In this document: positions 1 through 5,221 of the stretch, piece after piece | Layout of the letters: each line of letters opens with the position of its first letter | How positions within the stretch are numbered: position 1 is the first letter of the stretch | NCBI GenBank assembly: GCA_030765605.1 | Contig: JAVCCG010000055.1 | Span: 1-5,221, forward strand | Direction of reading: 5' to 3' | DNA from: Candidatus Alcyoniella australis | Lineage (GTDB): Bacteria; Lernaellota; Lernaellaia; JAVCCG01; Alcyoniellaceae | Length of the DNA: 5,221 nucleotides | Position numbers and translations under genes: made by a program | The notes under the pieces: model-generated | The model's database searches: none | Told to the model about the DNA's origin: nothing | Seen by the model: only the letters and a program-made list of their open reading frames with translations

Positions 1-543
1 ACTTGTACCAGACCAGGTGGATGCGGTCCTGGCCGTCGATGGCCGCGGCGAGCATGCCGCCGCACTCGGGCATCGGCTCGATAGTCTGATTGACCCATTC
101 GCCGCTGACCAGCGTGGTGTGCAGCAGCTGGCCCACGGCGCTGCCCAGGCGGATAACGTGCGGCGTGCCCGCGGAGTCCAGGGCGATCGAGCGATCATGC
201 GGTATTCATCTGAACTGTCGAGCAGCTCGACGCGCCAACCCTTATTCTCGCGCTGGGCGTAATACAGGTTGTTTAGCTCGAAGGTGTGGCCGTCGTACTG
301 GTTGTCAGTGAACACCAATTGCTCGGCGTCGACGCTTTGGCTGATGTTTGTTACGTAGTCGTCCTGATCCGCAGTCTCGAACACGGCTTCGAGTTCCCAG
401 ACGTAGCCTGTGGGCGACTCGTCGTCATCGTCGAGCAGGTCGTCGTCATCATCATCGTCGTCGTCTGCGCAGCCGCAGCCCGTGCCGAGTGCACAAATCA
501 AGAAAGTTGCGCAGAGCAACACGATTAGACGCCAATTTTTCAT
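1..543 (-). CDS. Repeat-containing lipoprotein with poly-Asp N-terminus; 3' partial and apparently frameshifted
   Basis: Starts at ATG 543-541 behind a strong GGAGGA ribosome site (spacer about 5). The N-terminus has basic residues (K2, R5), a hydrophobic stretch 6-19 and Cys at 23 and 25, which looks like a lipoprotein signal, although the lipobox (L-G-T-G-C) is imperfect. Nine consecutive Asp follow (27-35), then LLDDDD, likely a flexible acidic spacer outside the membrane. The rest resembles short repeats of the type 'LYYA..GW..E.LDSS...SIALDSAGTPHV', as in beta-propeller-like surface proteins. The initial frame holds to about codon 115 (R115, 201-199); afterwards sensible sequence (IALDSAGTPHV, then AIDGQDRIHLVWYK) appears only in another minus frame, from about 199 to the window edge. 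The initial frame stays open to position 1 but its residues become Arg/Ser/Pro-rich. Either a sequencing error or a pseudogene. The 3' end is outside the window. Function is unknown; I infer a secreted, membrane-anchored protein. Confidence 0.5.
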   Translation of the reverse strand, partial: MKNWRLIVLLCATFLICALGTGCGCADDDDDDDDDLLDDDDESPTGYVWELEAVFETADQDDYVTNISQSVDAEQLVFTDNQYDGHTFELNNLYYAQRENKGWRVELLDSSDEYRMIARSPWTPRARRTLSAWAAPWASCCTPRWSAANGSIRLSSRCPSAAACSPRPSTARTASTWSGTS

Positions 544-581
544 GGGATCCTCCCCCGAACGCCCCAAATATAAGCGAACAA

Positions 582-1670: not shown

Positions 1671-1687
1671 GGCACCTCGAAGGTGCC
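1671..1687 (-). terminator. Hairpin directly after the mrp-ORP fusion gene; possible transcription end
   Basis: A perfect 7-bp stem GGCACCT / AGGTGCC with a 3-nt loop begins at the last base of the TAG stop codon (1689-1687) of the Mrp fusion gene. Read as minus-strand RNA it is a GC-rich hairpin with a UUCG-like loop. No U-tract follows (CGCAAAGC...), so if it ends the operon it would be a non-canonical or Rho-assisted terminator, or instead a 3'-end stabilising stem. The hairpin is direct; its role is inferred. Confidence 0.4.
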
Positions 1688-2931
1688 TAGTGGTCGCAGA
1701 TGTTGTCGCCGGTCGCCAGGGTTCCGGCGATGTATTGCCGCACCAGCTCCTCGGGGGTCGATCCGGGTTGCGCACCCACGCGCACCTCAATGCCGAAATC
1801 TGTGAAGAACTGCTGCGCGCGCGATCCCATGCCGCCGGCGATGATGATATTGGCCCCTTGCTCACTGAGCCAGCGCGGCAGCACGCCCGGCTCGTGGGGC
1901 GGTGGCGGAAGCTGCTTGGTGTCGATGATCTCGTTGTTTTGCACGCTAACCAGGGTAAATACTTCGCAGTGGCCGAAGTGCGCGCACATCGTGCCCTCAG
2001 CCGTTGGAATCGCAATATTGGTAACTGCGCTTGAGCCCTGCGGCTCGGCCGTTTGCGGCTGCTGCGATGGCTTTGATTCAGCGGGCTGCTGTTCGTTGCC
2101 TGACGATGCGGCCACGATTTTTTCGAGAATTTCGTTGTAGGCCGCCTGCACCGGCCAGCCGTCCTGCTGGAGCATCAGCGGCTTGCCTGCGTCGCCGGAT
2201 ACCACCACCCGCGGGTCCAGGGGGATGCCGCCGAGGAACGGCACCTTGGCCGCTTCGGCCGTGCGCTTTCCGCCGCCGGAGCCGAACAGCGCCTCGCTGT
2301 GGCCGCAGTGGGGGCAGACGTAGGAGCCCATGTTTTCGATCAGACCCAGCACCGGCATGTTCACCGAACGGCAGAAGGTCAGCGATTTGCGGACGTCGGC
2401 CAGTGAGACCTCCTGAGGCGTGGTCACCACCAACGCTTTGACGCCGGTGAAGTCCTGGGCCACGGTCAGCGGCTCGTCGCCGGTCCCCGGAGGGGAATCG
2501 ATCAGCAGGTAGTCCAGATCGCCCCACTGGCTGTCGGCCACGAACTGGCGGATCACGCCGATTTTCAACGGGCCGCGCCAGATTACCGCATCGTCTTTGC
2601 TCTTCAGTAGGTTGCCCATTGAAAGCACTTTGAGGTTGGGCAGAAACTGCAGCGGGGTAATGCCTTCGGGCGAGGTCTGCGGATGTTCGTCGACCAGGCC
2701 CAGCAGTCCGGGCACGGTCGGGCCGTGCAGGTCGATGTCGAGCAGGCCGACCTGATACCCGCGCTTGGCCAGCCCCACGGCGAGGTTGGCGGCCACGGTG
2801 CTCTTGCCCACGCCGCCCTTGCCGCTCATCACCAGGATCTTGTTTTTTACTTTGGCCAAAGTCTCGGTTATGCGCTCGGTCTGGGCCTGCATCTGCGCTT
2901 TGCGATCGGACTGTTGCTGATTATCTTGCAC
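1687..2931 (-). CDS. mrp: Mrp/NBP35-family Fe-S carrier ATPase fused to a C-terminal NifX/ORP-type domain (MrpORP-like)
   Basis: A 414-residue cytoplasmic protein with two modules. Residues about 28-275 are an Mrp/ApbC-type P-loop ATPase: deviant Walker A SGKGGVGKST (36-45), LLDIDLHGPTVPG (63-75), MGNLL (105-109), IDSPPGTGDEP (144-154) and the cluster-bridging motif CPHC (206-209). Mrp proteins bind a labile 4Fe-4S cluster at the dimer interface through this CxxC and pass it to target proteins. A Gln/Pro/Ser-rich linker (about 275-302) leads to a NifX/NifB-C-type domain (PF02579, about 303-410) with AHFGHCEVF (317-325), PPPPHEPGVLPRWL (342-355), IIAGGMGSRAQ (363-373) and terminal CDH. This matches the MrpORP architecture of Desulfovibrio (DVU2109). 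The start is GTG 2931-2929, with GGAG 6 nt upstream. It is the last gene of the cluster, 59 nt after the stand-alone ORP-type gene, and a hairpin follows its stop. Transfer of a cluster to the neighbouring ORP-type protein is inferred. Confidence 0.95.
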   Translation of the reverse strand: MQDNQQQSDRKAQMQAQTERITETLAKVKNKILVMSGKGGVGKSTVAANLAVGLAKRGYQVGLLDIDLHGPTVPGLLGLVDEHPQTSPEGITPLQFLPNLKVLSMGNLLKSKDDAVIWRGPLKIGVIRQFVADSQWGDLDYLLIDSPPGTGDEPLTVAQDFTGVKALVVTTPQEVSLADVRKSLTFCRSVNMPVLGLIENMGSYVCPHCGHSEALFGSGGGKRTAEAAKVPFLGGIPLDPRVVVSGDAGKPLMLQQDGWPVQAAYNEILEKIVAASSGNEQQPAESKPSQQPQTAEPQGSSAVTNIAIPTAEGTMCAHFGHCEVFTLVSVQNNEIIDTKQLPPPPHEPGVLPRWLSEQGANIIIAGGMGSRAQQFFTDFGIEVRVGAQPGSTPEELVRQYIAGTLATGDNICDH

Positions 2932-2937
2932 GGATTA

Positions 2938-2941
2938 CTCC
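2938..2941 (-). promoter_or_regulatory. Ribosome binding site supporting the GTG start of the Mrp fusion
   Basis: GGAG at 2941-2938 is followed by a 6-nt spacer and GTG 2931-2929. The next in-frame Met is 13 codons later and lacks a good site, so the non-ATG start is preferred. Confidence 0.7.
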
Positions 2942-2990
2942 AAGTACTTTGTTTTTCAATTCGTGATCCGATTCCGTAAGCCGGTGGGCG

Positions 2991-3353
2991 TTATACCCAA
3001 TGTCCTGTGACGTTGGCGTCGGAGCTGGGCTGGTATTTGCCGGCCTTGAAATCCTCGATCGCTTGCCGTACGGTTCCGGTCGCGCCAGAATAGATCTTGA
3101 TTCCGGCGCTGCTGAGCACGGCGAAGGCCTTGGGTCCGCAGTTGCCGGTGAGCACGGCCTCGGCGCCCGAGGTGACCACGGACTGTCCGGCCTGGACCCC
3201 GGCTCCCTGCATCGCATGCAGGTTTTGCTCGTTGCCCAGCACCTTGTGCTCGCCGCTGTCAGTATCATACAGGATCATGCAGCGGGCACGGCCAAAGCGC
3301 GGGTCTACTTCGGAGTCAAGGCTTTCGCCGACGGATGTTATCAATAGTTTCAT
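2991..3353 (-). CDS. NifB/NifX-family Mo-Fe cluster-binding protein, orange-protein (ORP)-like
   Basis: A 120-residue single-domain protein of the dinitrogenase iron-molybdenum cofactor biosynthesis family (PF02579), the group that includes NifX, NafY and the Desulfovibrio orange protein, which bind Mo/Fe/Cu-sulfide clusters. Family motifs are MKLLITS at the N-terminus, DPRFGRA (17-23), NEQNLHAMQGAGVQAGQ (41-57), VLTGNCGPKAF (67-77), AGIKIYSG (83-90), TVRQAIEDFKAGK (94-106) and GHW (117-119). Cys residues are at 25 and 72. The start is ATG 3353 with AGGA 6 nt upstream. It lies 27 nt after the zinc-ribbon gene and 59 nt before the Mrp fusion, which carries a second, divergent copy of the same domain. 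It is the likely cluster acceptor or storage protein of this operon. No nif structural genes are visible, so a role in nitrogenase assembly is unlikely. Which metal it binds cannot be read from sequence. Confidence 0.93.
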   Translation of the reverse strand: MKLLITSVGESLDSEVDPRFGRARCMILYDTDSGEHKVLGNEQNLHAMQGAGVQAGQSVVTSGAEAVLTGNCGPKAFAVLSSAGIKIYSGATGTVRQAIEDFKAGKYQPSSDANVTGHWV

Positions 3354-3380
3354 CGTTTGTCCTTTCCGGATCGTTCTCGA

Positions 3381-3608
3381 TTATTTTTCACAACAGCGCT
3401 TGGGCTGATCGCAGGGTTCGCCGCGTCCGCAGCACGCGCTGTTGTCCGATGAGTGGCCTTGGCCGTTGATTGCGAACCCGCCGGGCGCGCTGAGTTGCTT
3501 CGCGGCCTCGCCCTCACAAAACGGGCAGACCGGCGCGGGCTCGTCAGCGTTTTGCAGCCGTTCGAACTGCACGCCGCATTCAAGACAGATGTATTCGTAG
3601 ATCGGCAC
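3381..3608 (-). CDS. FmdB-type small zinc-ribbon protein with a Cys-rich C-terminal tail
   Basis: A 75-residue protein beginning MPIYEYICLECG, the hallmark of the FmdB/CxxC_CxxC zinc-ribbon family (PF09723). The ribbon ligands are C8, C11, C28 and C31. After a Gly/Ser-rich stretch (GGFAINGQGHSS) comes a tail with five more Cys: C59, C60, C66, C72, C73, so nine Cys in 75 residues. FmdB-type proteins are usually annotated as putative regulators, but most are functionally uncharacterised. The start is GTG 3608-3606, decided by AAGGAG 5 nt upstream; this site overlaps the stop codon of the upstream ATPase, with only 2 nt between the genes, suggesting translational coupling. The ORP-like gene follows after 27 nt. 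Position inside the metal-cluster operon suggests metal sensing or delivery, which is inference. The tail could bind a second metal or cluster, or form disulfides. Confidence 0.9.
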   Translation of the reverse strand: MPIYEYICLECGVQFERLQNADEPAPVCPFCEGEAAKQLSAPGGFAINGQGHSSDNSACCGRGEPCDQPKRCCEK

Positions 3609-3610
3609 GG

Positions 3611-4477
3611 CTACTCCTTGTGCAGCAAGCGCATGGTCTCGTTGTAAACCGCGCGCAGCACTTCGAGGGTCGCTGATTCGCCGAGCTCGGGCAGTGTGCG
3701 CGCCGCGAGCTGCGCGCGGGTGATTGCGCTGTCAAAGGGCACGCGGCCGACAACTGTGGCCCCGAGCTGCACGGCGCGTTCCTCGATTTGCTCACACATT
3801 CTTTCGTCGATGTCGTAACGGTTGACACAGATCGCACTGGGCAGCTTGAAGTGCGCGGCGAGCTGCAGCACGCGTTCCAAATCGTGCAGGCCCGAGGGCG
3901 AGGGCTCGCTGATAATCAGCAGCATATTCGCGCCGCTGAGCGAGGCGATCACCGGGCAGCCGATGCCCGGCGGGCCGTCAACGAGCAGCGTCTCGATTCC
4001 GCGCTGGGCGCAGACCTCCACCGCGCGTGCCTTGACCTGGGACACGAGCTTGCCCGAGTTCTCCTGGGCAATGCCCAGCCGGGCGTGGATCAGCGGGCCG
4101 AAGCGCGTTTCGGACTCGAACCAGCGGCCCGCGATCTCGTGGGTCAGGCTGATGCTCGTAACCGGGCAGTGGTCGGCGCAGGCGCCGCAGCCCTCGCAGG
4201 CTAATTGGTCGATGACGAACTGCGGCGAGATCGCCTCAAAGCGGCACAGCTCGAGACAGCGGCCGCATTCGCTGCACTGTTCGAGGTCGTTGCTCGCGCT
4301 TAGGCCGCCGAGAAACTCGTGTTCGAGTGCGACCTGCGGGTCGAGAATCAGGTGCAGGTCGGCCGCGTCCACGTCGCAGTCGGCCAGGGCAACGTTGTCC
4401 GCCAGTGCGGCGAACGCGCCGACGATGCTGGTCTTGCCAGTGCCGCCCTTGCCGCTGAGCACTACTAACTGTTTCAT
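3611..4477 (-). CDS. MinD/ParA-family ATPase with inserted 2x[4Fe-4S] ferredoxin domain (second of a pair; DVU2103/DVU2104-like)
   Basis: A 288-residue P-loop ATPase. Walker A of the deviant MinD/Mrp type is SGKGGTGKTS (8-17). DCDVDAADLHL (33-43) is the switch region after the first strand. A ferredoxin-type insert has C68, C71, C74, C78 and C94, C97, C100, C104, enough for two 4Fe-4S clusters. The second ATPase half carries LLVDGPPGIGCPV (164-176) with a Cys directly after the switch II loop, and CVNRYDID (217-224). The ORF is open upstream to about 4813, but that extension overlaps the neighbouring ATPase in another frame. The true start is ATG 4477-4475, which shares ATGA with the stop of the preceding paralogue and lies at the normal distance before Walker A; the ribosome site is weak, consistent with coupled translation. 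Such ATPases occur in pairs next to NifX/ORP genes in anaerobes. Using ATP to load or move Fe-S or Mo-type clusters is the likely role; heterodimerisation with the upstream paralogue is inferred. Confidence 0.93.
   Translation of the reverse strand: MKQLVVLSGKGGTGKTSIVGAFAALADNVALADCDVDAADLHLILDPQVALEHEFLGGLSASNDLEQCSECGRCLELCRFEAISPQFVIDQLACEGCGACADHCPVTSISLTHEIAGRWFESETRFGPLIHARLGIAQENSGKLVSQVKARAVEVCAQRGIETLLVDGPPGIGCPVIASLSGANMLLIISEPSPSGLHDLERVLQLAAHFKLPSAICVNRYDIDERMCEQIEERAVQLGATVVGRVPFDSAITRAQLAARTLPELGESATLEVLRAVYNETMRLLHKE
3614..3619 (-). promoter_or_regulatory. Ribosome binding site for the GTG-started zinc-ribbon gene
   Basis: AAGGAG at 3619-3614 abuts the TAG stop of the upstream ATPase, with a 5-nt spacer to GTG 3608-3606. 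It fixes the zinc-ribbon start and ties its translation to the preceding gene. Confidence 0.75.
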
Positions 4478-5221
4478 CGCGCACCGCCGGCCAACGCCGT
4501 GACACGCGTTAGTATCTGTTCGAAAATCGGCCGCAGTCGGGGCAGGGCGTCCACGGCCAGCTTGCCGCGGGCGTAGGCCTGCGCCAGCTCGCGATCCTCG
4601 GGGATCTGCGCCAGCACCTCCAGTTCGTGCTCGGCGCAATAGCGCAAAGTGCGATCGTCGCCCACGTCCGCGCGGTTGATCAGCACGGCGCAGGGCAGGC
4701 CGAGCTTGCGCACCATTTGTACGGCCAGATCGAGGTCGTTGAGTCCGAACGGCGTGGGCTCGGTGACCATCAGCACGAAGTCCGCGCCGGATACCGAGTT
4801 CAGCGCAGGGCACGAGGTGCCCGGCGGCGCGTCGAGGATCACCAGCCGATCGCTGTCCAGTCGGCGTTTGACCTCGCGGATTAGCGGCGGGCTTTGGGCC
4901 TCGCCCACGTTGAGCCGGCCCTGTAAAAAACGCACCTCGCCGCTGTGCCCGCTGAACACCTCGCCGATCGGCCGTTCGATCTCGCTGATCGCGTCACGCG
5001 GACACGAGGCCAGGCAGTTGCCGCAGGAGTGGCACAGCTCGTCGAAGATCATCACCGATTTTTGCAACACGGCCAGGGCGTTGAAGCGACAGGCGCGGGC
5101 GCAGGCGCCGCAGAAGTCGCAAAGCTGGTAGTCCACGCGCGGCACACGCGTATTGATGATTTCGCGTTTGGTTATTTTTGGGTGGAGGAAGAGCTGGCCG
5201 TTGGGCTCCTCCACGTCGCAA
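4474..5221 (-). CDS. MinD/ParA-family ATPase with inserted 2x[4Fe-4S] ferredoxin domain (first of a pair), N-terminus outside the window
   Basis: The 248 visible residues lack the N-terminal Walker A, which must lie beyond position 5221. The visible part starts CDVEEPNGQLFLHP, the conserved segment that normally follows strand 2 of this family (usual form 'DCDVEEPN.HLFL'), so only about 30-40 residues are missing. GTG 5214-5212 in this frame is a Val codon of that conserved segment, not a start. The ferredoxin insert has C34, C37, C40, C44 (CDFCGACARAC) and C63, C66, C69, C73 (CHSCGNCLASCP). The ATPase half resumes at VILDAPPGTSCPA (127-139), then VTEPTPFGLNDL (152-163) and VLINRADVGD (179-188). 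The TGA stop (4476-4474) overlaps the ATG of the paralogous ATPase. Homologous pairs accompany orp genes in Desulfovibrio (DVU2103/DVU2104). Likely role: ATP-dependent Fe-S or Mo-type cluster handling in the cytoplasm. The family call is firm; partner and substrate are inferred. Confidence 0.93.
   Translation of the reverse strand, partial: CDVEEPNGQLFLHPKITKREIINTRVPRVDYQLCDFCGACARACRFNALAVLQKSVMIFDELCHSCGNCLASCPRDAISEIERPIGEVFSGHSGEVRFLQGRLNVGEAQSPPLIREVKRRLDSDRLVILDAPPGTSCPALNSVSGADFVLMVTEPTPFGLNDLDLAVQMVRKLGLPCAVLINRADVGDDRTLRYCAEHELEVLAQIPEDRELAQAYARGKLAVDALPRLRPIFEQILTRVTALAGGAR

Follow-up and report, generated by a model that had tools for sequence, protein, structure and literature searches.

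In D. vulgaris, the orp operons are driven by sigma54 and the activator DVU2106 (PMC3897727). For the orange protein (ORP) complex of D. vulgaris Hildenborough (DvH), which is encoded by the divergent orp1/orp2 operons (DVU2103-DVU2109), co-purification of Orp3, Orp4 and Orp8 and the transfer of Fe-S clusters to them by MrpORP have been described (PMC6345978). With this system, the locus presented here shares two ferredoxin-ATPases as a pair, an ORP/Orp8-type protein and MrpORP, as well as a sigma54 activator if contig C17 is its neighbor. The window (the whole stretch of DNA that was analysed) is the entire contig C55 with a length of 5,221 bases; the draft genome comprises 4.29 Mb and is 98% complete, and six same-class relatives were among the genomes compared.

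Gene content of the operon and assignment of its products

Gene calls and coordinates agree with the five same-strand genes listed in the earlier note: on the minus strand, two ferredoxin-ATPases (FA1 and FA2), an FmdB zinc ribbon, an ORP-like protein and MrpORP follow one another with intergenic gaps of -4 (an ATGA overlap), 2, 27 and 59 nt, and no terminator-like sites were found inside the operon on the coding strand. FA1 (4474..5221, minus strand), an Orp3/Orp4-type ferredoxin-ATPase with two PF00037 matches and a weak PF10609 match, is represented by 248 codons in the window and open at the contig end; its N-terminus including the Walker A motif is located on the dovetailing contig C17 (start at C17:662). 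The paralogue FA2 (3611..4477, minus strand; PF01656, PF00037), relatives of which were present in 79/241 genomes, contains the Walker A motif GKGGTGKT and two 4Fe-4S motifs. Both proteins thus carry 4Fe-4S ferredoxin sites within a MinD/Mrp-like ATPase, with two such motifs apiece. The zinc ribbon gene (3381..3608, minus strand; 75 aa, GTG start; PF09723/TIGR02605) is preceded by a Shine-Dalgarno sequence AAGGAG (3619..3614) that overlaps the 3' end of FA2, and is followed by the genes of a single-domain protein of ORP (Orp8) type (2991..3353, minus strand; 120 aa; PF02579, 84.5 bits) and of MrpORP (1687..2931, minus strand; PF10609 plus PF02579, corresponding to NF041136). Downstream of the operon, a xylose-isomerase-like TIM barrel (PF01261; 612-1535, minus strand) and a lipoprotein-like ORF with an Asp run (1-567, minus strand) are encoded, both probably unrelated.

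The same genome harbors a second orp cluster (L007, on contig C79, 1-4678) with an activator, in which FA1 and FA2 are fused to a 603-aa protein; ATPase frames of more than 600 aa in G002, G224, G193, G222, G119, G050, G080 and G124 probably represent the same fusion. An FA1-type ATPase of another genome (G231:C1:8709-9560, minus strand) contains one in-frame TGA, which may encode selenocysteine or else stem from a sequence error or from decay to a pseudogene.

MrpORP scored 512 bits against the NF041136 equivalog model (cut-off 450; NCBI) and is a fusion of two domains, Mrp/NBP35 P-loop (residues 27-272) and PF02579 (312-401). Its translation reads the deviant Walker A GKGGVGKST, CPHC, CAHFGHCE, the C-terminal CDH and PPPPHEPGVLP, to be compared with the described deviant Walker A, CXXC, CXHFGHCE, C-terminal CDH and TPPPHXPGXXP (PMC6345978). 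The domain pair and listed motifs of the DvH and DdG20 proteins (Orp9/DVU2109 and Dde3202; NF041136) are therewith matched; in contrast to these, the N-terminal four-Cys motif is missing, and the translation has no cysteine before Walker A. This motif has been reported for the two proteins of DvH and DdG20 and not as a family criterion (PMC6345978).

NifX (TIGR02663) shares the PF02579 fold with the ORP-like protein, and a grouping with NifX was what the earlier note had named as speaking against its ORP reading. With D. gigas ORP, it shares 44% identity (E 7e-22), whereas identity to NifX proteins amounts to 25-27% over 68-90 residues (best E 0.007). A 162-row tree groups the ORP-like protein with D. 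gigas ORP (94/99 clade). In another tree, the ten NifX proteins included make up a clade of their own (100/100); its branch measures 4.2 changes per column, a length that makes the attachment point of this clade untrustworthy. The NifX model TIGR02663 was matched neither by the ORP-like protein nor anywhere else in the genome, and a search of the genome for nitrogenase-type proteins (PF00148) revealed none. A tblastn comparison with 72,556 plasmids (E<=1) yielded three matches, two of them annotated as NifB/NifX-family cluster-binding protein and one unannotated. Based on the identity values and trees, the assignment as NifX was rejected and that as ORP upheld. With the MrpORP equivalog, the ORP-type assignment and the paired ATPases, it is near certain that the operon belongs to the orp kind, as had been proposed in the form of a system with its core genes on one strand.

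Probable upstream continuation and putative sigma54-dependent regulation

Over 552 bases, the end of the window (4670-5221) and the start of C17 (L008, 1-552) correspond end to end and ungapped with 95.5% identity, and 18/25 differences in this overlap concern third codon positions. C55 and C17 probably represent one locus that the assembly divided on account of strain variation: Because the overlap resembles that of strain variants and the genome is devoid of other FA1 ends for two copies, C17 is very likely the upstream continuation of the window, and a separate duplicated locus was judged less likely. Following the FA1 N-terminus, C17 encodes a cytochrome c7/c3-like multihaem protein (698-1771 of L008, minus strand, between the DUF5320 gene and FA1), a DUF5320 protein, a second PF02579 protein and a divergently oriented activator of PAS-sigma54 type (454 aa); no multihaem gene was found at a distance of up to 7 kb from the ATPases in the other surveyed orp loci.

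That no sigma54 regulator is visible, as noted earlier, holds for the window itself but results from where the contig stops, since the window is the whole of C55 and the activator is located on C17; an absence of sigma54 control was rejected on this ground, provided that C17 is the neighboring contig. A weak -24/-12 candidate (9/12; 30/2000 shuffles as good) immediately precedes the second PF02579 gene of C17, and the equivalent place of the C79 orp cluster exhibits an 11/12 match (2/2000 shuffles as good); among the same-class relatives, matches of 9/12 (G004) and 11/12 (G002) were detected. Judged from the C17 activator and these matches, the regulation probably resembles that of D. vulgaris, contrary to the former suggestion that it may differ.

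Recurrence of the zinc ribbon and its cysteine tail beside orp genes

The zinc ribbon scored 61.7 bits against TIGR02605 (cut-off 31.3) and contains two CxxC motifs; the N-terminal ribbon cysteines Cys8, Cys11, Cys28 and Cys31 are all invariant, and PF09723 was found in 19/19 tail-type members scanned. Its C-terminal part bears a conserved cysteine tail, CCGRGEPCDQPKRCCEK (3384..3434, minus strand; cysteine pattern in 19 relatives), which reads CCGRGEPCDQPKRCC in the window: Cys59, Cys60 and Cys66 are invariant among the 19 relatives and Cys73 is nearly so, and the form CCGxxxxCDxPKRCC recurs near letter-for-letter in L064, L131, L076 and L040. In the AF2 model, the ribbon has pLDDT values of 85-89 and the tail is disordered (pLDDT 40-51), which fits a flexible metal-holding arm without proving it. 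Another FmdB subtype, the tail of which reads SCPTGTCPLS or closely similar, was observed in or beside orp clusters, mostly of planctomycetes (L067, L074, L078, L080, L086 and L178, the latter with the variant DTCPTGTCPLS).

The neighborhood comparison comprised 80 loci (L054-L133) chosen solely by their similarity to FA2. Within these, 33 FmdB genes were present in 30/80 orp-like loci, a proportion that should not be extended to orp systems in general, given that the selection favors relatives of the FA2 in the window; 33/33 were on the FA2 strand, and 21/33 encode a CC-containing cysteine tail. By chance, 0.73 FmdB genes would be expected in 80 loci, based on a background of 0.69 per Mb in FmdB-positive genomes (n=125) among the matches listed. 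The best ~150 FmdB matches listed from 241 genomes gave a corresponding picture: 11/28 tail-covering matches were located within 8 kb of FA2, versus 0/98 tail-less and 0/24 intermediate ones (tail-covering versus tail-less, p 1e-8), and 8/25 tail-covering matches remained near FA2 after omission of the three loci that had entered the profile (p ~1e-6, among the matches listed). Of the remaining 17 tail-covering matches, 11 were inspected: four adjoin another NifX-fold or Mrp gene or lie on an orp fragment (G193, G006, G004, G129), five are tail-type FmdB genes with no orp gene nearby (G121, G239, G154, G222, G228), and two have no CC motif (G119, G231). In G006 (L167, 5583-6265) and G004 (L173, 5164-6178), the tail-type zinc ribbon adjoins a different NifX-fold protein (26-30% identical) away from the ATPases.

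A chance neighbor unlinked to the orp genes would be compatible with the same-class operon of G002, which has the order FA1-FA2-ORP-MrpORP and no zinc ribbon; the 33 same-strand genes versus 0.73 expected and the tail-type enrichment (p 1e-6 to 1e-8 among the matches listed) nevertheless make such an explanation very improbable, and it was rejected because of these recurrence counts. The view of the zinc ribbon as a recurrent partner was thus borne out. Its position between the ATPases and the ORP gene holds for the window and for eight cases in the 80 loci, in which FmdB is directly flanked by FA2 on one side and by an ORP-family gene on the other, but is one of several: FmdB was also encountered between FA1 and FA2, before FA1 and after MrpORP. 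The zinc ribbon is a movable accessory and not a fixed insertion. In G004, the gene that separates FA1 from FA2 is IscU-like, and a radical-SAM gene separates FA2 from ORP; the differing gene content of G002 and G004 indicates that the slots around FA2 take exchangeable accessory genes. Frequent neighbors of the ATPase pair in the 80-locus survey were metallo-beta-lactamase-like (29 loci), radical-SAM (28), DUF134-like (24) and IscU/NifU-like genes (22), named by reading of the sequences and not by family search; FmdB is, together with these, among the commonest genes of the FA2 slot. Since the described DvH ORP complex and the G002 operon do without it, the zinc ribbon is dispensable for the system. 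No link between FmdB and ORP was found in the open-access literature; as this type of FmdB gene recurs beside the orp system in many bacterial phyla, the tail-type zinc ribbon is apparently an undescribed accessory gene of orp systems.

Possible roles of the zinc ribbon and comparison with known systems

The ORP and MrpORP assignments, the recurrence of the zinc ribbon and the sigma54 activator on C17 together point to a normal orp system of an uncultured bacterium, with a recurrent accessory gene. By analogy to D. vulgaris, the ORP-type protein (Orp8) would carry a metal-sulfide cluster, such as the Mo-Cu sulfide cluster of ORP, and associate in a complex with the two ferredoxin-ATPases (Orp3/Orp4); MrpORP would load the Fe-S clusters of the complex. 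The zinc ribbon might act in this context as a small maturation factor: the zinc-binding ribbon (Cys8/11/28/31) would be folded and serve for docking, and a soft metal or an Fe-S unit would be held by the flexible tail CCGx4Cx4-5C(C) and passed on to ORP or the ATPases. We consider the chances of such a maturation role about even; that the complex forms here, which metal is held and in which direction it is handed over are points that we infer. More generally, and somewhat more tentatively, tail-type FmdB proteins could belong to the ORP systems of many phyla as a so far undescribed accessory subunit or metal/cluster carrier, acting together with ORP/NifX-fold proteins via a second metal site in the tail.

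Alternatively, the zinc ribbon could be a regulator with no part in cluster chemistry, which would sense metal or redox state and adjust how the operon is transcribed or translated. Zinc ribbons can bind nucleic acid; the tail of this one, however, is cysteine-rich and not basic. The designation of the FmdB family as 'putative regulatory protein' (PMC9312934) also favors a regulator, which is yet rather unlikely: the sigma54 activator on C17 would already explain transcriptional control, and the gene is located within the operon at variable places beside metal-cluster genes. Slightly more doubtful still is a subunit that gives structure or stability to the ORP complex and has zinc as its sole metal, with a second structural zinc at the tail cysteines; the ribbon is indeed the sole confidently modeled part (pLDDT 85-89) and its four cysteines are invariant, but the absence from many otherwise complete clusters would be odd for a structural role. 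As to the maturation factor, ORP systems are widespread in anaerobes, and the tail-type zinc ribbon provides a concrete, testable candidate for a part of ORP-cluster maturation; if true, this would be the first function for one subtype of a family still labelled 'putative regulatory'.

The locus can be delimited from the known systems as follows. NifX differs by its 25-27% identity to the ORP-like protein, its own 100/100 clade and the missing nitrogenase-type protein in the genome. The N-terminal ribbon Cys8/11/28/31 is common to the FmdB family (TIGR02605/PF09723), of which the zinc ribbon described here constitutes a subtype with the tail CCGx4Cx4-5C(C) that is encoded mostly beside orp genes. 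Compared with the DvH orp operons, the core genes are located on one strand, an FmdB zinc ribbon that has no counterpart in the described DvH complex is positioned between the second ATPase and ORP, and genes for a DUF5320 protein, a second NifX-fold protein and a multihaem cytochrome are found upstream on C17.
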